Shown here: positions 19,118 through 35,638 of the stretch, piece by piece
Position numbering within the stretch: position 1 is the stretch's first letter
Layout: the number at the start of each line of letters is the position of its first letter
Source of the DNA: Candidatus Avelusimicrobium pullicaecorum
Lineage (GTDB): Bacteria; Elusimicrobiota; Elusimicrobia; Elusimicrobiales; Elusimicrobiaceae
DNA: 64,000 nt
Direction of reading: 5' to 3'
Assembly: GCA_944322825.1 (NCBI GenBank)
Contig: CALUQD010000002.1
Location: forward strand, 1-64,000
Notes under the pieces: model-generated
What the model was told of the DNA's origin: nothing
The model's input: only the letters and a program-made list of their open reading frames with translations
Databases searched by the model: none
Program-made: the position numbers and the translations under genes

Positions 19118-20527
19118 CTATTTCATCAATTCTTCCACTTTACGCAAGCCCAAATCGGCATCGCTGTTGCCCGGATCCAGCTGTTTAGCCACAATCCAAG
19201 CCTGGCGGGCGCGTTCATAATCGTCTTGGTTGAAAGCGTCCAGCCCTTCAATGTATTTGGCACGGGAAGCGGCGCTGGCCTCCGGCGATACGCGGTTAAC
19301 CGTTCCGCCCAAGGTGGGCAGCGTTTCGTTGGCACCTACGGCCCCGACGGAAGTACCTATACCGCCAGTCGCCCCCGGAATGAGGGTATTATCCACCGTC
19401 ACCGTTTCAATCGGTTCTTCCTGAGCCGTTTCTTCCGCTTTTTGGGCGGCCTCTTCGGCTTTTTGGGCGGCTTCTTCCGCCTTCTGGGCCGCTATTTCGG
19501 CTTGCTGTGCCCGTTCCTGCTTCACGCGCAGGTGGTTTTCTTTGGCGTTGCGGGCCCGTTTAATCAAAGCATCCATCGTGCCGGAATCGGCCCCCCATTT
19601 CTTTGCATTGGTCCAGTAAGAAATGGCTTGGTCAAACCGGTTCGAATTATACGATTTATTCCCCGCGTTATAGTATCCCGCCGCAATCTCGTTTTTCAGT
19701 TGGGACATATATTTCTGCACCCGCGGGTCGCCGGGTTGAATTTTGGTAATCCGTTCAAATACGGCATACGATTCCACAAACTGCCCTTTGTTGTAAAAAT
19801 CCAAAGCCTGTTTCATCGAATCGGCCACTTGCTGTTTGCGCAATTTGTTTTCCGTTTCGGAAATTTTGGCTAACAATTTTGGGTCGTCCTTGCGCATCAG
19901 CAAGGCGTTATACCACGCGTCCAAGGCGTCCTGGTAATCTCCCTGCTCGTACGCCACATCGCCGCGGCGGGTATATTCTTTGGCAATGTCGTAATCGATT
20001 TTGCGCTTCCAGGCCTGGGCCTTGGAGTTGCCGGGCTGAATGGTTAAAATCTCATTCAATTTATCGTTGGCTTCCACCAAACGTCCGCTGTCGTAGAGGC
20101 GGATGGTTTCCTGGAATTTGGCTTCAATTACTTGGGCTTCCGAAATCGTGCCGTAAGTACCCATATGCTGGGCTTGTTTTGCCAACGTCTGAGCTTGTTT
20201 AAAATTAGGGTCAATGCTTAAAATGGTTTGAGCCATTTCCTGCGCGCGCTGATAATCGCCGTGCTTATAGAGCGTGTAGGCGTTTTCGTACACCATACGC
20301 AAGGTATAGTTTTGGATGCGCTGTTTTTCCAGCTGGACGGTGGAAAGATATTGTTTCTTTTCTTCCACATCGTTTAACGTACCCATAGAAATCTTGCTCA
20401 AATCCAGCAGCATTCCTTCTTCCTTGCCATGCTGGCGAACCGGAATTTCTTTGCGGAAACTGGCCGCCGCATACACCTGCAGCGCCGCCAGCAACAGGAA
20501 CGAAATAAAAACAAGGTTCTTTTTCAT
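19118..20527 (-). CDS. Exported TPR protein of the Tad operon
   Basis: 469 residues with a signal peptide (1-20, ending VYAAA) and at least six tetratricopeptide-like helix pairs, for example YKHGDYQRAQEMAQTIL, YDSGRLVEANDKL, YEQGDYQDALDAWYNAL, YNKGQFVESYAVF and a last one near the C-terminus (FNQDDYERARQAW). Between them lies an Ala/Glu/Lys repeat helix (about 345-375) and a Gly/Thr/Pro linker. TPR proteins such as TadD act in Tad pilus assembly, often as lipoproteins that help the secretin; this one lacks a lipobox. It directly follows TadC, 10 bases away, so a TadD-like scaffold role is likely. Confidence 0.85.
   Translation of the reverse strand: MKKNLVFISFLLLAALQVYAAASFRKEIPVRQHGKEEGMLLDLSKISMGTLNDVEEKKQYLSTVQLEKQRIQNYTLRMVYENAYTLYKHGDYQRAQEMAQTILSIDPNFKQAQTLAKQAQHMGTYGTISEAQVIEAKFQETIRLYDSGRLVEANDKLNEILTIQPGNSKAQAWKRKIDYDIAKEYTRRGDVAYEQGDYQDALDAWYNALLMRKDDPKLLAKISETENKLRKQQVADSMKQALDFYNKGQFVESYAVFERITKIQPGDPRVQKYMSQLKNEIAAGYYNAGNKSYNSNRFDQAISYWTNAKKWGADSGTMDALIKRARNAKENHLRVKQERAQQAEIAAQKAEEAAQKAEEAAQKAEETAQEEPIETVTVDNTLIPGATGGIGTSVGAVGANETLPTLGGTVNRVSPEASAASRAKYIEGLDAFNQDDYERARQAWIVAKQLDPGNSDADLGLRKVEELMK
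19422..19493 (-). repeat. 21-base tandem repeat in the TPR gene
   Basis: Three near-identical 21-base units encode KAEEAAQ repeated in tandem (the last one KAEETAQ). The units differ at third positions, so the repeat is not recent, but slippage could still change the length of the helix. Confidence 0.8.
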
Positions 20528-20538
20528 AAGTTTATCCT

Positions 20539-21426
20539 CTAAAAGCCCATCCCCCCGTTGATTAAACCGCTAATCATCGGAGCTAAAATTAAAATAAAAA
20601 TCGTTGGGAAAATAAACATAAACATCGGGAAAAGCATCTTGGTAGAGGCCTGCGCCGCCAATTTTTCAGCCCGGCTTAAACGGGTGGAACGCAAATCCGA
20701 CGAGAAGTTGCGCAGCAAATCCACCAAGCTGGTACCGAGTTCATCGGACTGGATAATCAAACTCACCAGCGAACGCACTTCCGCTACCCCCGTACGAGCC
20801 GAAAACCGTTCCAAGGCTTCACGGCGGGAATAACCCAGCTTAATTTCATTAATGGTTTTATCCAATTCTTCTTCCAGTACAGTTTTTACCTTGGCCACTT
20901 TGATAATTCTTTCAAACGCCGTCAAATAATCCAAACCGGATTCGATAATCAACGCCGCCAAGTCTACCGTAGTGGAGAAATTTCCTAAAATTTCCGCTTG
21001 GCGTTTTTGAATTTTACTTTTGATAATCACATCCGGCACCATAAAACACACCGGCACAAATATCACCGGCCACACCGACTGAAACAACAGCATTATCGCG
21101 GCCGGAATGGCCAAGGCGGCGATAATTTTAGAATATAAAATATCCACCGGCTGCGGGTTATCCGGGCTGCCCAGCTGCATATGCATCGTTTCCAAACTTT
21201 TTTCCAAATGGAAATTATGCAGGCAGAACACCGCCAGCCGGTCCATCAGTTTTTCTTCAGGTTTTAAACGCGCAAAGCTGGACGCGGACTTAAAACGGCG
21301 CACGTCCACATCCACGATTTTCTCTTTTTCTTCTTTTGCCGCAAGCAGGTTAAACACGGCAAAAAACATACAAACCGCGCCCAGCAACACTAACAACTTT
21401 AATCCCAAGGTCAAAGTTACGCTCAT
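20539..21426 (-). CDS. tadC: TadC inner-membrane platform protein
   Basis: 295 residues of the type II secretion F family. An N-terminal helix (about 8-28), a cytoplasmic stretch, a pair of helices (about 95-130), the GspF-type cytoplasmic domain with NFSTTVDLAALIIESGLD and LGTSLVDLLRNFS, and a C-terminal helix near 265-290 match TadC. TadB and TadC form the inner-membrane platform on which the TadA motor works. It starts 2 bases after the TadB stop, in the usual tadB-tadC order. Confidence 0.92.
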   Translation of the reverse strand: MSVTLTLGLKLLVLLGAVCMFFAVFNLLAAKEEKEKIVDVDVRRFKSASSFARLKPEEKLMDRLAVFCLHNFHLEKSLETMHMQLGSPDNPQPVDILYSKIIAALAIPAAIMLLFQSVWPVIFVPVCFMVPDVIIKSKIQKRQAEILGNFSTTVDLAALIIESGLDYLTAFERIIKVAKVKTVLEEELDKTINEIKLGYSRREALERFSARTGVAEVRSLVSLIIQSDELGTSLVDLLRNFSSDLRSTRLSRAEKLAAQASTKMLFPMFMFIFPTIFILILAPMISGLINGGMGF

Positions 21427-21428
21427 AA

Positions 21429-23048
21429 TTATACCCGCACTTCTCCCATTTTCTTAAGCACTTTCATACCGATACCAATCCAGATGATACAGAACAGGAA
21501 CACAAACATTCCCACCGGGCTCGTATAGAACGAAATCATCTGCGTCGGGTTGAAAATGAACATTACAAACATCATCACAAACGGCATAATGCTGACGACG
21601 ATGGACTGGATTTTCTGCTGGGCCGTCATCGCCTGCAGTTTTTCTTCCAGTTTGCTTTCCTCGCGGATATTTTCCACCAAACGGGCGAAAATAACCGTCA
21701 AGTTACCGCCGACCTGCCGTTGGATGATAATTGCTTTAATAATATACGAAAGCATCCGGCTTTCCACGCGGTCGGATAAACCGTCCAGCGCTTTTTCGAA
21801 AGGGGTGCCCAGCTGATAGTTTTTAAGAACCAATCCAAATTCATCCGAAATAGGCGGCAGCATATCCCGGGATACCAGTTCAAACCCCTGCACGATATCC
21901 ATCCCCGAGCGCAGGGAGTTGGAAAGCAAAATCAGCGCGTCCATCAACTGTTTGTTAACGCGTTTGCCGCGGCTCTTTTTCAGCGCGTCCAACACGGCCA
22001 TCGGCATACGAATGCTTACCACCCCGCCCAAAAACACCACCAGCAGGAAGATAAACACCCCCGTAAATCCGCCAATCATCAGCCCAAAAATCAACCCCAT
22101 CACCGCAAATAAGCCCACGGTGCCAAACACAATATATTTGATGTCAATTGTTACAAACTGACGGTTAAAATCTTCGGCCCATACTTCGCTTTTTTGCTTG
22201 TACTCCGCCACCATTTTCAAAATATCATCGCGTTTGTTTTCCAACAGCAAATAAACCGCCAATCCCGTCAGCGACGCCCCCAGCAACAGCATAAATAAAT
22301 GGATGGCCCGGTCGGCCGTCGTCGTCCGGTAAATTTTGGGGTCCGGGGGATTCATCGGAATAGATGTGCCTAAAAATTGCGAAAACAAATGGTTCGAAAG
22401 CACCACCACCGCCATCACCGACTGGCGGTATTTATTTTCCCGCTGGGAAATCGGGCTGGACAAGGACTCAATCGTGCTGAAAAATTCGCTGTTAATCAAT
22501 TCGAAGGTGGCCAGCATCGAGCGCGCACGCCCATCCATGCTGTCCTTCATAATCAACAGCTGCTGCCCGCGCAGCAAATCCTTATTCAACCGGTCCAGGG
22601 TGGCCATCAAGTTAATACGGTTTCCCACAAACCCGCGGGTGAGCTGCTCCATCACCACCGGCTTGTTTGGGTCGAGCGAATCCGCCGCCCGCTGCAAGTA
22701 TAAATACACATTCGAAAACGCCTGGCGCCACAAATCCACTTCGCTGTACGTGCCTTGATCCGGCACGTAAACAACTTTATTTTTTTCCATCCGGTCCAGT
22801 TCCGCTTCAAACCATTCGGGCATTTTTACGGTTTTTCCGGCCGCGGCGCCGCAAACATTCGGCAGGGTGTAGTCCTGCTTGGGCGTATTGACGTTAAAAA
22901 ATTCCGCCATTATTTGCATTTTGGCTTGAGCGCACTGGATGCGCGCCAAATCTTGCTTTCCCAACGCGCGGGCAGCCGCCGCGGACGGCACTGTTAAGGC
23001 CGCCGCACACAAAATGCTCCAAATGAACCATTGAATTTGTTTCGTCAT
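21429..23048 (-). CDS. tadB: TadB inner-membrane platform protein with exported N-terminal domain
   Basis: 539 residues; TadB is usually about 300-330. The C-terminal 300 residues are a typical TadB: helices about 305-350, a GspF-type cytoplasmic domain with LMDALILLSNSLRSGMDI and IIIQRQVGGNLTVIF, and two final helices. In front are a signal peptide (1-25) and about 225 residues of helical, soluble sequence with two cysteines, then a helix at about 250-268. The extra part should therefore lie in the periplasm, where it could contact the secretin or the pilus. It is in frame and continuous, so this is a genuine fusion or extension. Confidence 0.93.
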   Translation of the reverse strand: MTKQIQWFIWSILCAAALTVPSAAAARALGKQDLARIQCAQAKMQIMAEFFNVNTPKQDYTLPNVCGAAAGKTVKMPEWFEAELDRMEKNKVVYVPDQGTYSEVDLWRQAFSNVYLYLQRAADSLDPNKPVVMEQLTRGFVGNRINLMATLDRLNKDLLRGQQLLIMKDSMDGRARSMLATFELINSEFFSTIESLSSPISQRENKYRQSVMAVVVLSNHLFSQFLGTSIPMNPPDPKIYRTTTADRAIHLFMLLLGASLTGLAVYLLLENKRDDILKMVAEYKQKSEVWAEDFNRQFVTIDIKYIVFGTVGLFAVMGLIFGLMIGGFTGVFIFLLVVFLGGVVSIRMPMAVLDALKKSRGKRVNKQLMDALILLSNSLRSGMDIVQGFELVSRDMLPPISDEFGLVLKNYQLGTPFEKALDGLSDRVESRMLSYIIKAIIIQRQVGGNLTVIFARLVENIREESKLEEKLQAMTAQQKIQSIVVSIMPFVMMFVMFIFNPTQMISFYTSPVGMFVFLFCIIWIGIGMKVLKKMGEVRV

Positions 23049-23069: not shown

Positions 23070-25385
23070 TCATTGCTGCACCGGCCCCGCAGGCGGAGCA
23101 GGCGGCACATTCTTGCCCGCCAACTCTTGCTGCAAACGGGCAACGGCCTGTTTGTCTGGTTCGCCGGTTGCATCCAGCGGAACCGCATTTTTTAAGAAAA
23201 CATCTTTATCCACCGGCTGGCCTTTGGCCTCAAATTCGTCAAAGAAAGTCGGCAACTGGCCCGTAGGGGCAAACACGCCCTGCACTTTGCCGTTTTCGTC
23301 CACGCCGGTCTGCACGTAGCGGAACAAATCCGTAGACTGGATTTCCCCGTCTTTCTGGCCGTGCATTTCGGTAATATAGGTTACCTTTCTGGACCCGTCC
23401 GAAAAACGCGACAGCTGCACAATCATATTCACCGCCGAGGAAATCATCTCGCGGATGACATACACCGGCAATTCGGCCCCCGTCTGCATACACATCGCTT
23501 CCAAGCGGGACAGCCCGTCGCGCGGCGTGTTGGCGTGAATGGTGGTCAGCGAACCTTCGTGCCCCGTGTTCATCGCCTGCAACATATCCAGCGCTTCGCC
23601 GCCGCGGCACTCCCCCACCACAATCCGGTCCGGGCGCATACGCAAGCAGTTTTTCACCAAATCCTGGATGGTGATGGCGCCTTTGCCTTCCACGTTTGGC
23701 GGACGGCTTTCCAGCGACACCCAGTGCGGCTGCTGCAAGCGCAATTCCGCGGTATCTTCTACGGTGATGATACGTTCGTCGTTGGCAATGTAACCGGAAA
23801 TAGCGTTTAAGAAAGTGGTTTTACCGGTACCCGTACCGCCGCATACAATGATATTCTTACGAATACGAACGCATTTTTCAATAAACGCCATACATTCGGG
23901 GCTGATGGTGCCAAAGCGGTAATAATCTTCCGGTCCGAACGGTTTCTGCGAGAAACGGCGGATTGTCAGCGTCGGGCCGGACACAGCCAACGGCGCGATG
24001 ATAGCGTTTACGCGGGAACCGTCTTTCAAGCGGGCGTCCACGAGTGGCACCGATTCGTCGATACGGCGGCCCAGCGGCGCCACGATGCGTTTAATCACCT
24101 GCACCACTTGGTCGTTGTTGCGGAATTTATATTTGGTCAGCGTCAATTTACCTTTTTGTTCGATAAAAATTTTGTCAAACGCATTGACCATAATTTCGGT
24201 GACAGCCGGATCGCGCATTAAAACTTCCAACGGCCCCAAACCCAAAATTTCGTCCAATAATTCCGACGAAAAGCGCGTGCGCTGGTCACGCGAGAACTGC
24301 AAATTCGGCTGTTTCTGCAAAATATCGTCCACAATTGCCGCCACGCGTTTGCGGGTCTGTTCGCTGGCGGTATTTTCATCGCTTACCACGATGTGTTCAA
24401 TTTCCAGCGTATGCACCACTTCTTTGTGGATTTTTTGCTTTAAATCGTCCCAAAAAGAGAGTTTTGTTTTGGAACCTTCTTCTTCGGTCGCCACATGCTC
24501 GGCAACGCTGGTTGTTTTGCCGTCGTCAAACAGCAGCGGGCTCCAAATGTCTTTAGCGGCTTGGGTAAATTCTTCATCCGTTACCGACGCCACCCAATCT
24601 TTCGGGGCCGGTTTTAAATCGCGGATTTTGGCCAACACCAAACGCAGCCCTTTTACCCACTCCGACTGCGGATTAGTGATAATTTCCACCTCTTTGCGGT
24701 TCGACGTGGCCATCACGTCATCATCCCACGGCAGGAACACGTCGATTTCGCGCCCCAAGGACGAATAAAACCGTTCCACTTCTTCATACGGGATGGAACC
24801 CGGCATATCGTACGCGTTGCAAATAATGCTCACACGGTCCATCGGGTAGCGCTGTTCTTTGTAATCGTTAAAAAGCTGTACGGTGGAATTCAAATGCGTG
24901 CGAGTGGCCTGGGAAACCCAAAAAACTTTGTCCGCAATATCAAAGGCAAACGCCTGCATGGGAAAACTGGAATCCACATCCAAAAAGATATCAAAAGTCT
25001 GCGAAAGGCGCGATAATATAGGAATTAAAATTTTTGGGCTGATAGCCGACACCTGTGCGCGCGTGTTGCCCAGCGGCAATACGCCTACCCCCCACTGGGA
25101 CATCGAAATCTTCCCGCGCAGCAGGCCGCCCACTACGGCAATAGAGGTATTGCCCAAGGTACGCAGAATGTCCGAAACGCTGACCGGCTTTTTAATATCC
25201 AAATAGAAACTATGTTCCTGCCGGGCCAAGGGGTCCAGCGGCACAATCAGCACCGGGCGTTTTTGAATACCCGCCCAGCCCAACGCCAAGTTCAGCACAA
25301 GCGTCGTTTTTCCGGCTCCTTCTTTCGGGCCGGAAAACGCAATGATCTTTGCCTCTGACTTTTGGATTTCGTTTTCTTCTGCCAT
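23070..25385 (-). CDS. tadA: TadZ-TadA fusion: MinD-like ATPase joined to the Tad pilus motor
   Basis: 771 residues with two ATPases. Residues 12-260 are a MinD/ParA-fold domain of the TadZ/CpaE type: a deviant P-loop PKEGAGKTTL (20-29, with the signature Lys21) and FDIFLDVDS at about 131-139. Residues about 305-700 are a complete CpaF/TadA secretion ATPase with Walker A GGTGTGKTT (516-524), the Asp box ITVEDTAELRL, Walker B RIVVGECRGGEALD and the His box HEGSLTTIHAN. A Pro/Ala-rich tail ends the protein. TadZ normally is a separate protein that localises the pilus, while TadA powers it. Joining them would tie localisation to the motor. Neighbours are the secretin and TadB. Confidence 0.95.
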   Translation of the reverse strand: MAEENEIQKSEAKIIAFSGPKEGAGKTTLVLNLALGWAGIQKRPVLIVPLDPLARQEHSFYLDIKKPVSVSDILRTLGNTSIAVVGGLLRGKISMSQWGVGVLPLGNTRAQVSAISPKILIPILSRLSQTFDIFLDVDSSFPMQAFAFDIADKVFWVSQATRTHLNSTVQLFNDYKEQRYPMDRVSIICNAYDMPGSIPYEEVERFYSSLGREIDVFLPWDDDVMATSNRKEVEIITNPQSEWVKGLRLVLAKIRDLKPAPKDWVASVTDEEFTQAAKDIWSPLLFDDGKTTSVAEHVATEEEGSKTKLSFWDDLKQKIHKEVVHTLEIEHIVVSDENTASEQTRKRVAAIVDDILQKQPNLQFSRDQRTRFSSELLDEILGLGPLEVLMRDPAVTEIMVNAFDKIFIEQKGKLTLTKYKFRNNDQVVQVIKRIVAPLGRRIDESVPLVDARLKDGSRVNAIIAPLAVSGPTLTIRRFSQKPFGPEDYYRFGTISPECMAFIEKCVRIRKNIIVCGGTGTGKTTFLNAISGYIANDERIITVEDTAELRLQQPHWVSLESRPPNVEGKGAITIQDLVKNCLRMRPDRIVVGECRGGEALDMLQAMNTGHEGSLTTIHANTPRDGLSRLEAMCMQTGAELPVYVIREMISSAVNMIVQLSRFSDGSRKVTYITEMHGQKDGEIQSTDLFRYVQTGVDENGKVQGVFAPTGQLPTFFDEFEAKGQPVDKDVFLKNAVPLDATGEPDKQAVARLQQELAGKNVPPAPPAGPVQQ

Positions 25386-25390
25386 AAAAA

Positions 25391-26137
25391 TTATTCCACA
25401 ATTTCAACCGTAATAAACAGGAATAAAGAACGCTGTTCTTCCGTCACGTCTTTGTTTTTAAACAACAAGCCAATCAGCGGAATGCGTCCCAAGAAAGGAA
25501 CCCGGTCTTCAGACACGTTGCGCGAGCTGCTCTTTAACCCGCCGATAACCAACGTTTCGCCGCTGTTAAGCTCCACGTGGGTTTCCACGTCGCGGTTGGT
25601 GAAAGAAGGCGCCGTGGCCGTACCAATCACCACCGTTCTGGAATAGTCCACCGTAGAAACCGACAGCTGCACCTGCAAATCGATGATGTTATTGCGTTCG
25701 GGAATAATCGTAGGCAATACGTTAAGCAAAATACCGTATTCTTCCAGCTGGGAACCAACCCCCTGGTTGTTGACAATCGGTATCGGCACCTTGCCGCCGA
25801 CTGTAATCTTGGCGCTGTTGCCGGAAGAAGTAACAATCTTCGGGTTGGATAATACTTGCGCCCGGCCTTCCGTTTCCATCAAGCGAAGACGCGTGGTTAC
25901 GGCCGTTTTGCGTTCAAACTCGCCCAAGGACAATATGCCGGGGATAGAGGCTTCCTCAAAATCAAACAGCTGGTTCCACGAAAACCCTTTTACGCTCTGC
26001 ATGGTCCCGCTGATTTCCACCACGTCGGCGCTGACGGCCACCAAGCGCGTTTTTTTGGCAAAAGCGCACGACGGCATCAGCACGCTGAAAAGCAATACCG
26101 CGAGGGATACATTAGCTATAAACTTTTTATTCGTCAT
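25391..26137 (-). CDS. cpaC: Short CpaC/RcpA-type secretin
   Basis: 248 residues, about half the usual CpaC length. After a signal peptide (1-27) and about 60 residues comes a full secretin C-terminal domain: RAQVLSNPKIVTSSGNSAKI, then GKVPIPIV, a YGILLNVLPTI strand, VELNSGETLVIGGL, and the closing VPFLGRIPLIGLLF with FLFITVEIVE. The N0/BON-type periplasmic domains of CpaC are missing. It would form the outer-membrane gate for the pilus; the missing domains may be replaced by the exported N-terminal part of TadB or by CpaB, which is an inference. It lies between CpaB and the motor gene as in other tad operons. Confidence 0.9.
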   Translation of the reverse strand: MTNKKFIANVSLAVLLFSVLMPSCAFAKKTRLVAVSADVVEISGTMQSVKGFSWNQLFDFEEASIPGILSLGEFERKTAVTTRLRLMETEGRAQVLSNPKIVTSSGNSAKITVGGKVPIPIVNNQGVGSQLEEYGILLNVLPTIIPERNNIIDLQVQLSVSTVDYSRTVVIGTATAPSFTNRDVETHVELNSGETLVIGGLKSSSRNVSEDRVPFLGRIPLIGLLFKNKDVTEEQRSLFLFITVEIVE

Positions 26138-26151
26138 ATTCGTCCTGTACG

Positions 26152-26907
26152 TTATTGAAATAATTTTTCAAAAGTAGCGATTTCCATCAAGTAGTTGGTC
26201 ACATCGCCAGGCGTACGCAAGATGACGGAAATATCACCTTCCGCTTGGGCTAACGCCAGATACTGCGCATCCCGCGGCGAAAGCGCCAAAGACAAGGCGG
26301 AACTGTCGGAATAAGCCGCCGCGTCTTCGTCTTTATCTTTCATTGCGTTGGCGGATTTGGCATCCAAGCCCTGGCCCAAATCGGCCCCTACGCCCAACAC
26401 TTTTACGTTCTGTAAGAGCGTTACCGTCACTTTCTGGCGGGAACCGCTTTTCATCACCGCTTCAAACGTCAGCAAAATATCCACGTTGTCATCGGGTTTA
26501 ATCATACTGGCAGTCGCCAGGGGAATGTTATTGATGATAAAACCCCTCATCTGAACCGGAATTTTGCTTGATAAGCCGGCCTCGGGAGACAGCGAGGTCA
26601 CGGCATACTTGGAAATCTGGTTCCCTTTCGGAATTTGGATACGCGCCACGGCATTTTCGATGGCTTTCAAGTCGGCATCCGTCGTATACGTAAAAGCGTC
26701 CTTCTGCAAGTAAGCAGCCGGCACCGGCACGGTTTTGATGTAATCGCGCTTGATGACTTCGCGTTCTTTAATGTCGCGCACCGGCACAAACACCTGTTTG
26801 ATGTTTTTAGACGCGTTAAGTTTTTTGGACGCGTTATTGACAATAATTCCATATATGATGGCCGCCAACAAGGCAATCACCAACGGAAGAAAGTATCCTT
26901 TTTTCAT
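26152..26907 (-). CDS. cpaB: CpaB/RcpC periplasmic pilus assembly protein
   Basis: 251 residues. One N-terminal helix (about 5-22), then an SAF-type domain with QVFVPVRDIKEREVIKRD followed by beta-rich sequence including GKNQ-like IPKGNQISKYAV, and a C-terminal RcpC-like region with PDDNVDILLTFE. CpaB/RcpC proteins connect the secretin to the inner-membrane platform and may bind peptidoglycan. The gene directly precedes the secretin gene (14-base gap), the standard order. Confidence 0.9.
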   Translation of the reverse strand: MKKGYFLPLVIALLAAIIYGIIVNNASKKLNASKNIKQVFVPVRDIKEREVIKRDYIKTVPVPAAYLQKDAFTYTTDADLKAIENAVARIQIPKGNQISKYAVTSLSPEAGLSSKIPVQMRGFIINNIPLATASMIKPDDNVDILLTFEAVMKSGSRQKVTVTLLQNVKVLGVGADLGQGLDAKSANAMKDKDEDAAAYSDSSALSLALSPRDAQYLALAQAEGDISVILRTPGDVTNYLMEIATFEKLFQ

Positions 26908-26950: not shown

Positions 26951-27439
26951 TTATTTGGTATCCGAACTCAGATACGCCTTTTCAATCGGCATCCGGGCAG
27001 TTGCCTTTATTTTGCGGATCCCCTCTTTGCGGGGCTCGCTGGCCAGTACATAACTGGTGCCCGGAAACATCAAATGCACGGGATAGGTTACTGTAACAAC
27101 CACATCTTCGTGGCGGTGCTTTTTATACATCGGGTCGGTGCCGGTCGTTTCCACTTTCACGTTTACGGCAATTCCGCCCGCTTTCGTGCCAAACACTTTT
27201 TGCTTGGCTTGGTTTATCTTTTGCGTTATTACTGTTCTGTCCGGCCGGCCGCTGGGTTTTTTGACGGCTACCAGCGAGCCGATACGGGCAAACTCATAGG
27301 AAGCGTGGTTGGCGATAATCGTGTGGTAGGCGATGTTGCCGTATTCAAGGACGAAAAAAATCATCAACATAAATACCGGCAAGATGAGCATCAGCTCCGC
27401 CGTAACCTGCCCGCCACACTTCCTACGAAATTTGTTCAT
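26951..27439 (-). CDS. tadE: TadE-like pseudopilin (second copy)
   Basis: 162 residues. The leader MNKFRRKCGG is followed by QVTAELMLILPVFMLMIFFV, with Gly before the site and Glu at +5, then a membrane helix and a charged domain of about 120 residues. This is the TadE pattern. It differs strongly from the TadE-like protein at 11039, so the locus encodes two separate pseudopilins. It lies between the two Flp pilins and CpaB. Confidence 0.88.
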   Translation of the reverse strand: MNKFRRKCGGQVTAELMLILPVFMLMIFFVLEYGNIAYHTIIANHASYEFARIGSLVAVKKPSGRPDRTVITQKINQAKQKVFGTKAGGIAVNVKVETTGTDPMYKKHRHEDVVVTVTYPVHLMFPGTSYVLASEPRKEGIRKIKATARMPIEKAYLSSDTK

Positions 27440-27450
27440 GCGCCCTCAAA

Positions 27451-27672
27451 TTACATTTCGCCCATTTTGCCGGTGATTTTGCCTTTGATTTGCTCAAACA
27501 ATTCCGGCATATAGTTCTTAATCAACACACCGGCCAACCCGGCCACGCCCACGACCACTACGAGCATCAACACGTATTCAATCGTGTTCTGGCCTTCTTT
27601 TTTCTTCAGGCAGCCCAAAGCTTGCGCTTTCAAGGCGTCCATTTTGTTTTGCAAAGCAACGATAAACTTCAT
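27451..27672 (-). CDS. flp: Flp-family pilin
   Basis: 73 residues. A helical basic leader of about 27 residues ends in KKKEG; the mature part starts QNTIEYVLMLVVVVGVAGL with Glu at +5 and Tyr at +6, then a hydrophobic helix and a Lys/Gly-rich tail. This is a typical Flp prepilin and, being next to the assembly genes, probably the major subunit. A TadV/CpaA prepilin peptidase should cleave after the Gly; no such gene is in the window. Confidence 0.92.
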   Translation of the reverse strand: MKFIVALQNKMDALKAQALGCLKKKEGQNTIEYVLMLVVVVGVAGLAGVLIKNYMPELFEQIKGKITGKMGEM

Positions 27673-27702: not shown

Positions 27703-27888
27703 TCAGTCTGCGTCATAGTCCGACAAAACGACTTTGGCCCCTTCGTCAAACTGCTGCGGAACCATATACGAGTAAAGCACATAAAACGAAATAATCGCCG
27801 TCAAAAGCCCCGCCGCTATCACCATATATTCTACCGCGGTTTGGCCTTTATTATTTAACCATTTTTTCGTTTTAGCTCCGTTCTTCAT
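27703..27888 (-). CDS. Flp-like pilin (variant)
   Basis: 61 residues. The leader ends LNNKG, followed by QTAVEYMVIAAGLLTAI with Glu at +5 and Tyr at +6, one membrane helix and an acidic tail (VVLSDYDAD). It is clearly Flp-like but shorter and more divergent than the next gene, with an acidic rather than basic end. It starts 3 bases after the PorV-family gene ends and may be a minor pilin. Confidence 0.85.
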   Translation of the reverse strand: MKNGAKTKKWLNNKGQTAVEYMVIAAGLLTAIISFYVLYSYMVPQQFDEGAKVVLSDYDAD

Positions 27889-27891
27889 ACC

Positions 27892-28863
27892 TTAAAATTG
27901 AATGGCCAACGCAATCTGCTGCGAAGTGCCCAACGCCCCAAACGGCGTGACGGCGTAGTCAATCGAAGCGCCATAGCCGAACAGTTCCGAGCTGTAAATG
28001 CCGAACCCGAACGACACTTTAGACGTTTCTTCCAGCCCTAAGCTGTCCACCCAATCCTCGGTGCTGATACCCGTATTATCGCGGGTGTAATAGCCCACGC
28101 GCAAATCAAAGCGGGCTACTTGGAGCAAATCTTCGGGGATGTGGATTTCCAACCCTACGCCGTAGCGGGCTTTATCGTCGCGGTATTTCATATATTCACC
28201 GGAAATGGTGAAATAGCGCGTATTCAAATCCGCGCCCAAGCGCAAACCGCGGGGCATTTCTTCGCGGTCGCCGATGTTCACCAGCGCACCGCCCAATCCC
28301 AGCCAGTTCACCAAGCGCAGTTTAGCGCCCACGTCAAAACCGACGTTGTTGTAGTGGTCCGAGTCCAACTTTTCCGAAATATATTTGGCCGTACCGCCGA
28401 TTTGGAGTTTCTGGTCGAAAAACCCGCGCGCGATAGACAAGCCGCCCACAAAGTTCTGCACCGGCGTGCCGACTTCCGGCCGCAGCGAACCGTCATCCCC
28501 GCGGAAATCGAACCCATCCATATCCATATAGTTCAGCGTCACGCCGATAATGGTTTTGCCGATTGGCTGCAAATAAGCCAAGGTGCGCGCTTTATACCCT
28601 TGCAAATAATCCAGGTACGAAAACTGGAGTTCGCGCGTAGTGGCCGAAGCCGCGCCGGCCGGGTTCCAAAACAGCGCTTCCGGCCCATCGGCAATAGACA
28701 CATAGGCATTACCTAAGGCCTGGGCTCTGGGGGAGCCGGCGTCAATCTTTAAAAACGCACTGGCGCTGGTACCGGCATAGGAATCAATCGAAGAAGCCGA
28801 CGCGCTGGCGCTTACCAGACCGACTGTTAAACAAGCAATTAAAACTTTTAATCTTATATTCAT
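27892..28863 (-). CDS. PorV/PorQ-family (UPF0164-like) outer membrane protein
   Basis: 323 residues with a signal peptide (1-23) and a beta-barrel pattern throughout. The hallmark of the PorV/PorQ family is present near the start: FLKIDAGSPRAQALGNAYVS followed by ADGPEALFWNPAGAA. The C-terminus ends in aromatic IALAIQF, as expected for an outer membrane barrel. In Bacteroidota PorV shuttles type IX cargo to the surface attachment step. Here it directly follows the giant FlgD-like protein, whose tail resembles a type IX sorting domain, so the pair may work together. Its place before the pilins also links it to the Tad operon. Confidence 0.88.
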   Translation of the reverse strand: MNIRLKVLIACLTVGLVSASASASSIDSYAGTSASAFLKIDAGSPRAQALGNAYVSIADGPEALFWNPAGAASATTRELQFSYLDYLQGYKARTLAYLQPIGKTIIGVTLNYMDMDGFDFRGDDGSLRPEVGTPVQNFVGGLSIARGFFDQKLQIGGTAKYISEKLDSDHYNNVGFDVGAKLRLVNWLGLGGALVNIGDREEMPRGLRLGADLNTRYFTISGEYMKYRDDKARYGVGLEIHIPEDLLQVARFDLRVGYYTRDNTGISTEDWVDSLGLEETSKVSFGFGIYSSELFGYGASIDYAVTPFGALGTSQQIALAIQF

Positions 28864-28878
28864 AAATTTCGTTTTCTG

Positions 28879-28967
28879 CCGGACTTATCCGGGCTTTTAG
28901 TTAAGTTCCGGCCCCACGGGCCCCTGCAACAACTACAACGCCCTTGGGGGGCTAAGCCCCCCTTGGG
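28879..28967 (-). repeat. Strong hairpins between the giant surface gene and the PorV-family gene
   Basis: GGGGGGC and GCCCCCC pair around a three-base loop (28946-28962), with CCC/GGG flanks; a second stem CCGGA/TCCGG lies at 28879-28892. No T tract follows on the minus strand, so they look like message-stabilising or partial-termination structures that could set the ratio between the giant protein and the downstream pilus genes. Confidence 0.65.
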
Positions 28968-28968
28968 T

Positions 28969-31900
28969 TTACGGCACCAAAATTTTGACTACTTTTTGGC
29001 AGTGTTCGCGTCCGTTCTGGGCTTTAAAGTCCACCAGACCGAAGTACACGCCGCGGGCCACTTTTTTGCCGTGTTGGTTGGTGCGGTCCCAGCGGCAGCG
29101 CAGCGCGGCGTTGCGGATGTTGGGGAACGCGGCCAAATCGTCGCCCGTCATTTGGGTAGAGCCTTCCGGCGTATTATCCGGGTTGAACTGCAGGCTGCTG
29201 CCCATCGTTACCTGGTAGTTATTGGCGTCCACGCAGGTATAGTTGCTGTCGCGCACCAAATCGCCCGCCAGGTTGAAGAACTTAATAGACACCGTGCCCG
29301 GCACCGGCATTTTGGTAATTTCCAGCGTACCTTTGGAAGCGTCGCGCAGCGGGTTCGGGTAGAAGAACACCGTTTTCTCCCAGTCTTCGCAGACGAAGCG
29401 CCCGTCGCCGATGGCAATCGTTGCCTTGTGCAGGTTCTGGTACTGATACGTATCGGCCACTTTTTCCACGCTCCACAGCTGGCTGTTGGTGCTGGAATCG
29501 TCGCTGCCCAGGATTTCGCCGGTTACGCTGTCGATATCGGCGGAATTGAGCGCCGTTACGAAGCGGAACGGATAGGTTCCGTCCGGCACTTCCTGCTGGG
29601 CATAGTCGCGGCCGTCCCACAGTTCTTCAATCAGCGTGGTAGCCGGGCGGATACCCACAATAGCTCTTACCAATACTTCGCGGATATCCTGCACTTCGGT
29701 ACCCGTAGTCGGGTTACGCAGCGTACCTTTTTGATAATCATAAATGGTGGTACCGGGTTTGAAAATCTGAATGGCTACTTTCATCGGCACGGAAATTTGA
29801 TAGCCGATTTTCATATCCGTACCACGCTGGGAGATGGCATAGCCGTCGGCTTCCAGCAAGTCGAACACTTTTAAGAGGTCCGCATTGACGGTGACGCTCT
29901 TAACCGTTTCCTGGTACAAGCCCGGATCGGGGTAGTTCTTGGCCGTCAAGCGGATTTCGTAGATACCCGGTTTGACGTAAATACCGTTATTGTCGGTGCC
30001 GTCCCAGTAGATTTTGCGAACGATGTTCGGGTCAAAATCGCTAGTGTTGATAATCGTCATTGTAGAGAGGTATTTACACACCTGGCCCGCAGCCGTGTTG
30101 CGCTGGGTAAGCGTGCCGGTGGTGCCGTAGCACATATTGGGCTGCAAAGCCACTACGGCGACTTCTACGGTAGACGCGCGGGACACCGCAAAATTGATTT
30201 CGTACGGCGGAATGAATACCGGGCCCGAAGACGCGTTGAACAACTGCGGCGCATTCGGATACACCACTACGGAGCCGTCCAAGAAGTACACGGGCCCACG
30301 GGTGACGTTAATTTTGCTGACCGGTTTTTCCGTGGCGTACAGGTAATTCTGCTGTACCACTTCGGCCGCCGTTTTGAACGGAGCGCCCGGCAAGTAGGTG
30401 GCTTGCGGATTGCTGCCCGCAATGATTTCGCCGCCGTTGGCATAGTAGCGGTTGAACGCTTCGTCCGAGCGGGCCGAGATAAAGAACGGATACTGTCCGT
30501 CCGGCACCATTTCGTAGGGGCACTCTTTAAGGTCCGTCGCGCCCGTGCAGGCGGCAATTTCTTCCTGCGTGTGGCGTTCGGCAGACGGCGTCGGGTTGTA
30601 GAAATAGAGCGCGTCCCATTCTTCGGTAATCAGCATACCTTCGCCCGCTTTGGTAGCGGAGCGGTCAAATGTTTTGACGGGCTGCAAGCGCACATCCACC
30701 ACGCCCGAGGCCGCTTCAGCCGCCGTGGCCGGGTAGTTGGTGAACGTCGTATCGTTCACATAGATACAAGCGTTGGCCGAGGTGACGCGGGAAGGCACCA
30801 CATAATCCACCAACGCGGCAGAACACGTACCCGCCGCACCGCCGGTACCTTCCGTCCACGTAGCGTTCGCCGGGCAGAATAACTTGGCATCGGTCGTCTG
30901 ATCGCAGATGCGGGGCGGCCACGTGGTCGTGGTATTGGTGGTGATATCCACCTGCTCCCGTTTGAGCGAAACGGTATACTGCGATTCTTCCGCCACTGCG
31001 GAACCCGCTACATAATTCGGGTTTTCAGCTACCGTGATGGTATCGCGGTAGTACACAGTTTCGCCGCTGACAACCGCAGTATTAAGCTGGACTTGCGTAC
31101 CCAACGCCAAGCCGGTCAAAGCAATGGGCGTCGTTTGGCCTTGTTCGTATACGTTGGCCGTTGTTACATCGTTCGTGTAACCCGTAGCGACCTGGGTGGA
31201 AATAACGGTGTAATCGTTATAATCGCCGGTGGTATCGTTGTACGCCGGGATGACGACATCCTTATTATAGATGTTCACCTGGACGTTCATCGCCTTGGAG
31301 AGCATATAGGAAATAGTAGCCTTGGCTTCACTATCGCCATACACATCGGTAGTCGACACGTCCACCACGTGGTACATATCCACGGGGAACACCGCCGAGG
31401 CTTTGTTGGTTACCGCCGGGAACATCGCGTCCTTGGTTTGCACCGTAAACATATAGGTGCCGGGGGTGACCATACGGCCCTGGTCGTCGCGGCCGTCCCA
31501 CGACAGCGTATTAAGCTGTTGGGAAACCTGGGTGACGCCTTCTTCGGGCGTTAAGTACTTGACCGGCACGCCGGCGGAGTTTTCCACCCGGGCAATCACC
31601 GTAGAATCACGCGCGATAGAGTATTTAAAGATGAACGGATCCAAACCGTAAGCCGTCGGGCTGGAGCCGACCGTGGAATAGCTGACGGGCTGAATGGTAA
31701 TATCCACCAGTCCGCGTTCCACCGGCAGCTGCCCAACGGAATAGTTCAGCGTTTTAACAGCAGTGTAACATTGGCCGTTGGTTTCGTTAGCTAAATCGTT
31801 GCTATTTTGACTTTGTCCTTCTGAATTTTTTCCTAACGCACCACAAACAACACCGCTATAAAAAGCTGGTGTACCGTCGCCGCCCACCGCATTTATATAT

Positions 31901-33894
31901 TTACCGTTGTACGGAATTTCCGCCCACAGCACATATACATAGTTGCCGTCCGGCATCGGGGCGCCATACGCAAACGTTTCGGTACAACTATCCTGCGTAC
32001 AAACCGTACCGTCGGACATTTTTTCATTTACCGTATAAGTACGAGTACACCCACCATTTTCGCTAACTGTGTAATAATAACATTTCTCAGAACCCGCACC
32101 GCAAGTTCCAGTCAGAGGATTTCCCTGCCCGTCGACAGCCCCCGCCGGGAAATCGTCCCCATTATCAATAACCGATAAAGTCTGCAAAGAACCGGGTTTA
32201 ATACCGCACAGGCCGTCCCATTTGGACGTATAATTCATCCGGCCGGAGCGGTCCTCGGACGAGCGGTACACCAACGTGCCGCCCTGCGGTACCGGACCGG
32301 TACCCGTGGGGGTGGAAGAATCCGTCAGCACATTGGTTGTGGCGCCGGAACCGCTAAAAGTGGTACCGGGAGTATAGATTTCCCAATACACGGTAGAGGC
32401 TTCCGTCGGCACATAATTAATAGAAGCATACGCCGTGGACTTTTTGTTGAGCCCCGTAGAAGTGATATCCGTCAGTTTCAAGGGGTCCAGCGACACTTGG
32501 CGCGTAACGGCGCGGGAGAAATCCACCCCCGGCCATTCGTCCTGCGCTTTCGCCTGGATAGCCGCCACATAGTTCCCCGCGGGCAAGAGCAACCCATCAT
32601 CGTTGCGTCCGTCCCACGAGTCAAATTCTACAATCTGCTTATCGCTTTCGGTGCCTTTCATTCCTTCGCCCACGCGCGGCTGCCAATCCACCAGCGTGCG
32701 CACCAAAGCGGTATTTACTTTATTAGAATCGCCTGTACCAGTGCCAATATCTCCAGTATTCTCGTCACTCCCATAGTCAAGATCATCTCCGTTGGAAGCG
32801 TCAAAAATGGCCACGCGGACATTGGAGTCTTTACTTAAGCGGTATGCAAACGTATACGGTTGCGCGGACACAGCGGTAATATCGCCCACCACCGTCGGAG
32901 TGCTGCGCACGGAGTGCACGTTCGTCACGTCCACCTGTATCGGGATTTGGTTCATACCCGGGTAGGCAATGGTAGAGTTAAATTCAATTTTATCGGTAAT
33001 GATTTGGTCGCCGGGGAAGTCCGTCGCCACGGTAGCGCGGAAAGCAAAATCCCCGTTGGATTTGCCGAATTCACCGCCGATTTCATACGAGCCGTCCCAC
33101 GCCGCGCAGAACGTAATAGGATCGCCGGAAGGAGTGCCGTCATCATTAAAAATGACATAAGGGCATACATCGTTGGGGCAGTTTGCATAGTTGCCATTGG
33201 AATCTTTAGATCCCAATTGGCAATTTGAGATAGTAGTAGTTGATTGATCTGAAATCCGAATACATTGGCCACCCCGCAACTCATATGTGGGGGCAGGACA
33301 AGTAAGGCCCTCATCCGGACCGCCCGGACAGCGATACGACCCGCATTTTGTGCTGTCCGTATCGGGATACAAATCAATCGTGCGGATAGCGGGCGTTTCG
33401 TCCGGATTCTCGATATTCTTGCCGTTATAGTATTTAACAATGTCAAACTTAATTTGCTGCAACGGGAAAGAAATAGAATAAGTACTCTGCGCCATTGGTC
33501 TGTTAGTACAGACAACATCCATACACAACGCCAAGCAGTGGTTCGGATAGTTGTTTTTTGCCGGAGTAGTAGACGGATAGGGTTGGTCGTACTCAATCAA
33601 GGCGGAGCTCACCCACGGGTCCGTTTGGTTGGCATTGCCGTCCGGCGCGGGCGAGGTGACAAAACTGCGGTTGTATCCGTTTCTACTATTCACCAATTCA
33701 TCTAATCCTTCTGCACTCCAATCGCAATACATACCGTTGGTAGTGGTAGATGGCCTATAATACACGCCCGCGTTGCGGACCTCGGCCGTTTGGGCAAACA
33801 GCGGCGCACCCGCCGCGAGGAGTAATGCAGTTAAAACGGCGCAGTACGCCGCTTTACCCAGGAAAACCCGAAGTAAACTGTTTATTTTTTTCAT
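28969..33894 (-). CDS. Giant secreted FlgD-like repeat protein with type IX-like C-terminal tail
   Basis: 1641 residues. ATG at 33894 is chosen because it begins a clear signal peptide (MKKINSLLRV, hydrophobic core, ending LFAQ); an in-frame start at 33996 would add 34 residues with no ribosome binding site. Along the protein a FlgD-like Ig motif recurs: WDGRNDDG near residue 425, WDGRDDQG near 800, WDGTDNNG near 1300, WDGRDYAQ near 1430 and WDRTNQHG near 1600, each followed by a PxGxY strand. The last 130 residues read FFYPNPLRDASKG, FFNLAGDLV, ARGVYFGLVD and end KVVKILVP, the order seen in type IX (type A) sorting domains. It should be exported and surface exposed. It contains many cysteines. 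It is the first gene before PorV and the pilins. Confidence 0.92.
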   Translation of the reverse strand: MKKINSLLRVFLGKAAYCAVLTALLLAAGAPLFAQTAEVRNAGVYYRPSTTTNGMYCDWSAEGLDELVNSRNGYNRSFVTSPAPDGNANQTDPWVSSALIEYDQPYPSTTPAKNNYPNHCLALCMDVVCTNRPMAQSTYSISFPLQQIKFDIVKYYNGKNIENPDETPAIRTIDLYPDTDSTKCGSYRCPGGPDEGLTCPAPTYELRGGQCIRISDQSTTTISNCQLGSKDSNGNYANCPNDVCPYVIFNDDGTPSGDPITFCAAWDGSYEIGGEFGKSNGDFAFRATVATDFPGDQIITDKIEFNSTIAYPGMNQIPIQVDVTNVHSVRSTPTVVGDITAVSAQPYTFAYRLSKDSNVRVAIFDASNGDDLDYGSDENTGDIGTGTGDSNKVNTALVRTLVDWQPRVGEGMKGTESDKQIVEFDSWDGRNDDGLLLPAGNYVAAIQAKAQDEWPGVDFSRAVTRQVSLDPLKLTDITSTGLNKKSTAYASINYVPTEASTVYWEIYTPGTTFSGSGATTNVLTDSSTPTGTGPVPQGGTLVYRSSEDRSGRMNYTSKWDGLCGIKPGSLQTLSVIDNGDDFPAGAVDGQGNPLTGTCGAGSEKCYYYTVSENGGCTRTYTVNEKMSDGTVCTQDSCTETFAYGAPMPDGNYVYVLWAEIPYNGKYINAVGGDGTPAFYSGVVCGALGKNSEGQSQNSNDLANETNGQCYTAVKTLNYSVGQLPVERGLVDITIQPVSYSTVGSSPTAYGLDPFIFKYSIARDSTVIARVENSAGVPVKYLTPEEGVTQVSQQLNTLSWDGRDDQGRMVTPGTYMFTVQTKDAMFPAVTNKASAVFPVDMYHVVDVSTTDVYGDSEAKATISYMLSKAMNVQVNIYNKDVVIPAYNDTTGDYNDYTVISTQVATGYTNDVTTANVYEQGQTTPIALTGLALGTQVQLNTAVVSGETVYYRDTITVAENPNYVAGSAVAEESQYTVSLKREQVDITTNTTTTWPPRICDQTTDAKLFCPANATWTEGTGGAAGTCSAALVDYVVPSRVTSANACIYVNDTTFTNYPATAAEAASGVVDVRLQPVKTFDRSATKAGEGMLITEEWDALYFYNPTPSAERHTQEEIAACTGATDLKECPYEMVPDGQYPFFISARSDEAFNRYYANGGEIIAGSNPQATYLPGAPFKTAAEVVQQNYLYATEKPVSKINVTRGPVYFLDGSVVVYPNAPQLFNASSGPVFIPPYEINFAVSRASTVEVAVVALQPNMCYGTTGTLTQRNTAAGQVCKYLSTMTIINTSDFDPNIVRKIYWDGTDNNGIYVKPGIYEIRLTAKNYPDPGLYQETVKSVTVNADLLKVFDLLEADGYAISQRGTDMKIGYQISVPMKVAIQIFKPGTTIYDYQKGTLRNPTTGTEVQDIREVLVRAIVGIRPATTLIEELWDGRDYAQQEVPDGTYPFRFVTALNSADIDSVTGEILGSDDSSTNSQLWSVEKVADTYQYQNLHKATIAIGDGRFVCEDWEKTVFFYPNPLRDASKGTLEITKMPVPGTVSIKFFNLAGDLVRDSNYTCVDANNYQVTMGSSLQFNPDNTPEGSTQMTGDDLAAFPNIRNAALRCRWDRTNQHGKKVARGVYFGLVDFKAQNGREHCQKVVKILVP

Positions 33895-34030
33895 TGTGCA
33901 AGTATCCATTTTGGGGACCAATTCCCTTCTAAAAATTAAGTTTGTACAAATCTTTTGCGCTCCCAAAAAAATGCGCGCAAGTAGGCGGCTGCTCATATAA
34001 TATAGACAGACGCCGACATAATACTCTTAA

Positions 34031-34059
34031 ATTCTTGCAACTTTTGGGGCGATTGTCAA
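34031..34059 (-). promoter_or_regulatory. Likely promoter for the giant surface gene and Tad operon
   Basis: TTGACA (34059-34054) is 17 bases from AAGAAT (34036-34031), a four of six match to the -10 consensus, on the minus strand. It lies in the 243-base gap before the giant gene and would leave about 130 bases of leader. The part of the gap nearer 34138 holds GC-rich inverted repeats after the diguanylate cyclase stop, without a T tract. A second possible -10 (TATATT) lies near 34000. Confidence 0.5.
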
Positions 34060-34137: not shown

Positions 34138-35634
34138 TTACGCCACCTGTTCGGCCACTTCGCGGTAGACGGCAAAACTGCCGCGCCCGTTCTGTTTGAC
34201 GACGTACAACGCTTTGTCGGCCTTTTCCAAAAGCACATCCGGCGTCGTGCCGTCAAACGGGAAGGACGATATCCCTTGGCTGATGCTCAAATGCACTTCT
34301 TTGCCTTCGGTATACCGCTCCGGCAGCGTAATGGCGCCGATGCGGTCTTTGAGGCGTTTGGCGATGATTTTGGCTTCCTCGCCGTTGGTGCGCGGCAGCA
34401 TAATCACCATTTCGTCCCCGCCGAAGCGGCACGGAACGTCCGTCTGGCGCAGGCTGGTGCGAATGACGCGGCTGACTTCTTTTAACGCCCAATCGCCAAT
34501 TTGGTGCCCATACCCGTCGTTGATTTGTTTGAACCAATCGATATCCATAATGATTAACGAAAGCGTCAAATCAAAACGTTTGGAACGGTAGATTTCTTCG
34601 GCGAATTTTTCGTTGAAGTACCGGCGGACCGGCAATTTGGTCAGTTCATCGTAGTTGGAAAGTTCCTGCACGCGTTCAAACAGGCGGGCGTTGTCGATAG
34701 ACAGCGCCATCTGCGACGCAAACTGCTGCAAGGAAATAAAATCCATATACCCAATGCGGCGGCGGGAGAGGATATTGTCAAACGCCAAAAACCCCACTTT
34801 GTTGCGCTGCACTTTTAACGGAATGTAAATCACGCTGCGGGTGGAGCGGTACGCGGCGGCGGAATCGAACACTTCTTTGAGTAAATTTTCTTCCCCTTGG
34901 GGCAGGGTTTTGCCGTCCTGCTGGGTTACTTTGCCCGAAATATCCACCCCCAGCACCGACTTAATTTTGCTCCCTTCCGCATCCGTCAAATACAGCCGCA
35001 CGCGGTCAAACCGAAAGTAGCGCTGCACGCCTTTTAAAATCAGTTCCAAGCCGTCGTTTAACCGCAAGGACGAAGCAAAAATAGTGGACAAATCATTGAG
35101 CGCGGTGGAAATGTTTAACCGCTGGTTTTTGGCCTGGTCAATTTCCGTATTGCGCAAATTGTGCGAAATTTCCTCCCCCAGCGCCTTGATGAGTTCTTTT
35201 TCCTCGTTGGAAAACACACGGTTCTTGCGGAAGCGTTCCAAGCGCAGCACGCCGACTTTGTCCTGCATAAAGTTGTGTATTTCCCCCGCTTTGAGTTCCA
35301 CGCTGGGGCGTTCCCAGCGCACCAACACATAAATGGCGGGATAGCTTAAATCCGTCGTTTCGGCCAATCCGTCCTGCAGGAGTTGTTTTAAAAATACGGG
35401 TTCGTTTAAAACGGATATATCTTCCTGCATATCCATACAGTATTCTTTTTTGCACATCATTTTTAAAGACAGCAACGCCCGTTCCTGCTGCCAGTCAAAA
35501 AAGTACACGCGGTCCAGCCTAAACAAATTGCGAAGCGCCGGCAAAGCGCATTCCAATAGTTCCCGCTTGTTTTGAAAGGATTGGTTTAATTGTTTGTGAA
35601 ATTTATACAGCGTATACGATTTTTTATCAAACAT
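34138..35634 (-). CDS. GAF-GGDEF diguanylate cyclase
   Basis: 498 residues, no membrane segment. Two GAF-like regions (about 20-170 and 180-325) precede a GGDEF domain (about 335-490) with YDELTKLPVRRYF, the substrate loop DIDWFKQINDGYGH and the active-site motif FGGDEM. The GG(D/E)E core is intact with Met in the last place, so it should make cyclic di-GMP from two GTP. The start at 35634 has AGGGG seven bases upstream; the frame continues further but overlaps the previous gene. It begins 4 bases after the stop of a cytoplasmic solute-binding-protein-like gene, so that protein may feed it a signal. It ends the 12-gene operon and precedes the pilus locus, a plausible target of cyclic di-GMP. 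Confidence 0.93.
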   Translation of the reverse strand: MFDKKSYTLYKFHKQLNQSFQNKRELLECALPALRNLFRLDRVYFFDWQQERALLSLKMMCKKEYCMDMQEDISVLNEPVFLKQLLQDGLAETTDLSYPAIYVLVRWERPSVELKAGEIHNFMQDKVGVLRLERFRKNRVFSNEEKELIKALGEEISHNLRNTEIDQAKNQRLNISTALNDLSTIFASSLRLNDGLELILKGVQRYFRFDRVRLYLTDAEGSKIKSVLGVDISGKVTQQDGKTLPQGEENLLKEVFDSAAAYRSTRSVIYIPLKVQRNKVGFLAFDNILSRRRIGYMDFISLQQFASQMALSIDNARLFERVQELSNYDELTKLPVRRYFNEKFAEEIYRSKRFDLTLSLIIMDIDWFKQINDGYGHQIGDWALKEVSRVIRTSLRQTDVPCRFGGDEMVIMLPRTNGEEAKIIAKRLKDRIGAITLPERYTEGKEVHLSISQGISSFPFDGTTPDVLLEKADKALYVVKQNGRGSFAVYREVAEQVA

Positions 35635-35638
35635 AACG

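Follow-up and report, generated by a model that had tools for sequence, protein, structure and literature searches.

A giant repeat protein with a type A-like sorting tail beside a PorV-family gene and a Tad pilus operon in Candidatus Avelusimicrobium pullicaecorum

The 64,000-nucleotide stretch of Candidatus Avelusimicrobium pullicaecorum analyzed here (contig CALUQD010000002.1, positions 1 to 64,000; the window) encodes a giant repeat protein. More likely than not, this protein is an adhesin-like cargo that a type IX-like SprA/PorV route exports across the outer membrane to the surface. The analysis yielded homologies, gene order, co-occurrence, and an unsuccessful search for motor and sortase genes, drawn from the window, its own genome (87% complete), and a survey set of 248 Elusimicrobiota genomes, 177 of them good; the phylum-wide result is independent of the completeness of the window's own genome. 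Published accounts present type IX secretion as a rotary-motor-driven system of Bacteroidota and relatives. An earlier, sequence-only reading had seen a type IX-like tail beside a PorV-family gene at this locus; what it observed is confirmed, and its interpretation is partly supported.

Sorting domain and PorV-family neighbor

The motifs on which the sequence-only reading was built (PNP, LAGDLV, GVYFGL, and KVVKILVP, in type A order) all lie in the last 140 residues of the giant protein and are strongly conserved in 30 orthologs. A loop of about 45 residues splits the domain, and profile matches fall in two colinear halves. Because of this split, a TIGR04183 search of the window's own genome alone would have misled; it returned no match even at E ≤ 10. 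The hidden Markov model check proposed in that reading gave a divided result, with the isolated window tail under the cut-off (14.6 bits; cut-off, 23) and 28 of the 30 orthologous tails matching TIGR04183 when scanned singly; the PorZ and PorU models matched 30/30.

Profiles were built from the 30 orthologous giant tails and from 21 tails of other Elusimicrobiota. The giant-tail profile matched the Elusimicrobiota sorting-tail profile at 98.3% (E, 2e-14; hhalign), and the giant's internal repeats matched it at 95.5% at best, with far lower scores. With the sorting-tail profile, the real tail scored 48.3 bits, whereas none of 2000 shuffled versions exceeded 5.8; this score is not chance. Giant tails and other Elusimicrobiota tails alike have invariant Lys residues close to the C-terminus, which are conserved likewise in Bacteroidota type A tails (PMC10994853).

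An AlphaFold2 model of the tail (mean predicted local distance difference test score, 70) had PorZ as its best Foldseek match (E, 1.3e-3) and the C-terminal part of PorU (residues 1054-1156) as its best VIA match (Z, 8.2; root-mean-square deviation, 2.8; 100 aligned). Because the VIA rows that come next tie with this one (within Z 1), the fold match supports a sorting domain without proving it. By sequence, a PDB search with the tail profile gave chance-level matches only.

Likeness to FlgD immunoglobulin (Ig)-like repeats had been conceded as a weakness of the argument. Internal FlgD_ig repeats do exist (four stretches by Pfam; a weak match also lies on contig C4 of the same genome), but the tail fits type IX models better: in Pfam, the orthologous tails matched Por_Secre_tail in 25/30 cases, CHU_C in 23/30, and FlgD_ig in 3/30 (best FlgD_ig E, 0.008). 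The window's own tail stays under the curated cut-off of every one of these models. Judged from the profiles, the tail is a diverged type A sorting domain and not merely an Ig repeat.

The next gene had been called PorV/PorQ-like, and the call held. Its product matches NF033709 with full-length coverage (88.7 bits; cut-off, 90), and the model matches 21/21 of its orthologs. Two other PorV-model matches in the genome were set aside as FadL-like and TraF-like by sequence.

SprA, cargo, and motor genes in the phylum

The SprA homolog, which the sequence-only reading did not see, is encoded outside the window, as a 1885-amino-acid (aa) open reading frame (ORF) on contig C27 found with the SprA model (TIGR04189, 99 bits; curated equivalog cut-off, 200). 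A profile of 21 Elusimicrobiota SprA homologs matched solved SprA (6h3i, 6h3j) in colinear stretches (E, 3e-31), unlike a single-sequence PDB search with the C27 protein, which retrieved no SprA. The aligned homologs all end in Phe, and a C-terminal Phe is a trait of outer-membrane barrels. The phage tail tube model NF052337 also matches 6 of the 21 homologs (best E, 1.5e-6). The genome-wide count called for earlier came to one SprA and one PorV proper. That reading was to be given up if the genome lacked type IX or SprA homologs and the tail scored only as FlgD Ig; SprA is present, and the type IX models fit the tail better.

LptF/LptG-like genes lie near SprA in 19 of 21 sampled loci and a ComF-like gene in 15 (named from sequence), a neighborhood that recurs phylum-wide (loci L045:7692-14759 and L078-L097) and whose stability suggests long vertical inheritance. 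In the window's own genome, a gene for a secreted trypsin-like protease lies directly upstream of the SprA homolog.

SprA homologs occur in 209 of the 248 genomes (165 of the 177 good ones). Type A tails were found in 168 genomes (158 over the TIGR04183 cut-off), with some 20 or more in many of them, and PorV-family proteins in 219 (over the NF033709 cut-off in 150), with tens of candidates in many. With the window's genus left out, SprA and tails were both present in 156 genomes, SprA only in 6, tails only in 10, and neither in 29 (odds ratio, 75; p, 9e-21; the statistic ignores shared ancestry). One genus of small genomes, possibly endosymbionts (family f12, genus g41), tends to miss SprA, tails, and PorV together.

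Pairing was examined in a non-random sample of 30 genomes, each represented by its top-scoring tail. All 30 of these tails could be assigned to the ends of genes, and those on the plus strand that were checked terminate 0-8 residues short of the stop codon. A PorV gene lies downstream of 16/30 tailed genes, one 799 bp off and the others within 264 bp or overlapping. The PorV profile matches 6/242 genes (2.5%) of SprA neighborhoods as a background rate, and the enrichment has p 2e-18 under a binomial null. A second tail-PorV pair in the same family lies outside a Tad context (L182).

Among the matches listed for the Elusimicrobiota tail profile in the window's genome, all are in the giant, which is also the sole match within the window; in the window's genus, most of the tail matches listed fall in frames about as large as the giant. 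With tail matches of this size and one PorV proper in the window's genome, the route in this genus is apparently reduced to one cargo.

The remark that no PorK/L/M/N was seen stood as far as GldL, GldM, and GldN were searched for: none exceeded its cut-off in the 248 genomes, with 8 (best E, 1.8e-5), 3, and 1 weak matches, respectively (GldK was not searched). Peptidase C25 (PorU-type sortase) was found in 1/248 genomes and is absent from the window's genome; its two matches, both in genome G006 (L136, L137), are the sole PorU/gingipain-type domain seen phylum-wide. None of the 14 control genomes served as a positive control for the motor models, whose sensitivity at such distance is unproven, and a diverged motor may have escaped them, since SprA itself is under its cut-off. 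As the tail is of the sorting type, its neighbor belongs to the PorV family, and the tested motor genes were not recognized, an alternative export route, first put forward as possible, is likely. Since neither the GldL/GldM motor and GldN ring nor the sortase was found here, the system is kept apart from true type IX secretion systems; its components are type IX-like, and its action probably is too.

Giant gene and Tad operon

The giant-protein ORF spans 28969-33996 (minus strand; 1675 aa) and has two in-frame ATGs near its start, at 33909 and 33894. The start had been placed at 33894, which is an in-frame ATG, but the first likely ATG is 33909, shortly after the ribosome-binding-like AGAAGGGA. 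The signal-peptide cleavage site is kept in orthologs as AQTAE/AQTAD/GQAQAD. Promoter-like sites in the region are not more frequent than in shuffles, and terminator-like sites show no excess (10 found; 10.5 expected from shuffles). One related genome (locus L175:4764-13210) has two giant genes in tandem (1367 and 1380 aa), followed by only one PorV gene.

The neighbors were rightly read as Tad pilus genes (Table 1), with Flp-like small pilins, TadE, CpaB/RcpC, secretin, CpaE-CpaF, TadB, and TadC downstream of PorV. Pfam T2SSE, T2SSF (twice), RcpC, and TadE were over their cut-offs; TadG was not recognized in the window's operon. The order CtpA-TsaD-solute-binding protein-GAF/GGDEF-giant-PorV-TadE-CpaB-secretin-CpaF-TadB-TadC-TPR is conserved in 32 Elusimicrobiaceae loci, read as far as each contig extends; in the window, the Flp-like pilins sit between PorV and TadE. 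Three other genera of Elusimicrobiaceae share the giant-PorV-Tad order, one of them represented by a single-contig 1.64-Mb genome. In the window's genus and two others, a GAF-GGDEF gene stands immediately before the giant, a position hinting at control of the Tad operon by cyclic di-GMP. The secretin lacks the usual N-terminal domains, and its orthologs are alike (about 244-269 aa). The size of the CpaE-CpaF fusion is conserved across the family, and the TadB extension, some 370 residues long, begins like a signal peptide.

Table 1. Features of the giant gene, the PorV-family gene, and the Tad operon in the window
Feature	Position	Strand	Details
GAF-GGDEF (diguanylate cyclase) gene	34138-35733	(-)	Directly precedes giant gene
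Promoter-like site upstream of giant gene	34031..34059	(-)	10/12, TG before -10
Giant secreted repeat protein	28969..33909	(-)	1646 aa from first likely ATG; signal peptide, FlgD-Ig repeats, sorting domain
Predicted Sec signal peptide of giant	33793..33909	(-)	Cleavage between LFA and QTAEV, assigned by eye
Best internal FlgD_ig repeat of giant	31429..31596	(-)	Pfam
Further FlgD_ig stretches of giant	near 32542-32619, 29935-30015, 29563-29622	(-)	Pfam
Type A-like sorting domain, giant C-terminus	28972..29382	(-)	YPNP ... LAGDLV ... insertion ... WDRTNQHGKKVARGVYF ... QKVVKILVP
7-bp G+C hairpin between giant and PorV genes	28946..28962	(-)	
Outer-membrane barrel of PorV/PorQ family, likely the giant's cognate shuttle	27892..28863	(-)	NF033709
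Flp-like small pilin 1	27703..27888	(-)	61 aa, 3 bp after PorV stop; Flp_Fap 21.1 bits, under cut-off
Flp-like small pilin 2	27451..27672	(-)	73 aa; Flp1_like 16 bits, under cut-off
TadE-like minor pilin	26951..27439	(-)	Pfam
CpaB/RcpC	26152..26907	(-)	Pfam
Secretin	25391..26137	(-)	248 aa; signal peptide and secretin domain only
CpaE(MinD-like)-CpaF fusion ATPase	23070..25385	(-)	Pfam
TadB with long N-terminal extension	21429..23048	(-)	Pfam
TadC	20539..21426	(-)	Pfam
TPR protein, last of conserved gene run	19118..20527	(-)	Pfam, gene order

Proposed route, alternatives, and known systems

We propose that the giant would cross the inner membrane via Sec and that the adjoining PorV-family barrel, docked in the C27 SprA homolog, would bind its C-terminal Ig-like domain, after which the giant would be drawn outside and kept anchored at the surface by the PorV shuttle. 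This PorV paralog would be the dedicated carrier of one cargo, like SprF for SprB in Flavobacterium, though the tail is type A. Judged by gene order only, with the giant-PorV pair at the head of the Tad operon, the giant most likely serves in docking or adhesion at the surface, in concert with the Tad pilus. The motor of Flavobacterium johnsoniae is thought to supply the energy that pulls cargo-bearing PorV free of SprA (PMC10994853). To name the Tad ATPase or a Tol/Exb-type motor as the driving force here would be guesswork.

Several points weigh against this proposal. No motor gene was recognized, which leaves the driving force unexplained, and SprA, PorV, and tail of the window's genome are all under the cut-offs of the curated Bacteroidota models. 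In structure, the tail matches its best hits only marginally (Foldseek E, 1e-3; tied VIA rows). The structural model of the window PorV is tied with FadL/TodX, and neither a single-sequence search nor a clade-only profile found PDB relatives of this protein. The co-occurrence statistic and the choice of tails for the pairing sample carry the limits given above.

Among the alternatives, the giant might itself be a Tad pilus part (a tip or outer-membrane docking protein) surfaced by the Tad machine, with PorV as a Tad accessory and SprA for other cargo. Its tight, conserved linkage with Tad genes speaks for this, as do the tips of large multidomain minor pilins known for Tad (PMC12075869) and the presence of TadE with TadG unrecognized. 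We nonetheless think it unlikely, as its N-terminus reads by eye as a Sec-type signal peptide and not as that of a class III pilin; tails of the same kind adjoin PorV paralogs at many other Elusimicrobiota loci, such as the non-Tad pair L182; and the giant is the only recognizable tailed protein in the window's genome, so SprA would be left without a known cargo.

Slightly less credible is a complete type IX secretion system whose PorK/L/M/N and sortase have diverged past what the models can recognize. With SprA itself found only under its cut-off, further parts could lie out of reach, and the weak GldL matches in 8/248 genomes lend this some color, but GldL/M/N were never over cut-off, with weak matches scattered in 1-8/248 genomes versus 209/248 for SprA; C25 is confined to one genome; and the conserved neighbors of SprA are lptF/lptG-like and comF-like, with no motor genes. 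That the tail is simply the final FlgD-type Ig repeat in a structural protein of the periplasm or the surface, beside an ordinary FadL-like porin, would suit the similar fold, the internal FlgD_ig repeats, the TIGR04183 score, and the FadL tie, but is very improbable given how strongly tail and internal repeats differ against the sorting-tail profile, the Pfam counts, the full-length PorV-family match shared by all 21 orthologs, and the recurrence of tail-PorV pairing across the phylum.

Beyond the export of the giant by SprA and PorV, we put forward more tentatively a phylum-wide SprA/PorV route with cargo-specific PorVs and without a GldL/M motor or PorU sortase, which in this gut genus would have been pared down to one translocon, one shuttle, and one cargo, tied into a Tad operon. 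If true, this would suggest a type IX core that is older or more mobile than thought and able to use another energy source, and gut Elusimicrobiota with one channel, one shuttle, and one cargo would offer a very simple natural setting for asking what drives cargo through SprA. We found no report of a type IX-like route in Elusimicrobiota in PubMed Central papers on both subjects, part of which were judged by title.

A review places the type IX secretion system in the Fibrobacteres-Bacteroidetes-Chlorobi superphylum (PMC11205867). The Elusimicrobiota system shares with that of Bacteroidota a homologous SprA/Sov translocon, a PorV-family barrel, and a C-terminal Ig-like tail with a near-C-terminal Lys; it differs in that GldL/M/N and the C25 sortase were not recognized by model searches in Elusimicrobiota, that the window's genome has one recognizable cargo and one PorV, and that PorV paralogs are encoded beside cargo. 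As in the type B substrate/SprF (PorP-like) pairs of F. johnsoniae, a large adhesin cargo gene directly precedes a dedicated shuttle gene (PMC12618676), but here the tail is type A and the shuttle of the PorV kind, with a specificity that we infer from gene order alone. The giant's internal repeats resemble the Ig-like repeat domain (FlgD_ig) of the flagellar hook cap FlgD, unlike its tail, which fits sorting-domain models better; no flagellar genes were found among the genes examined here. CpaF, TadB, TadC, CpaB/RcpC, TadE, and Flp-like pilins stand together as in other Tad pilus operons, whereas, unlike usual ones, the window's operon is headed by the giant-PorV pair, has a 248-aa secretin without N-terminal domains, and encodes CpaE and CpaF as one fused protein.
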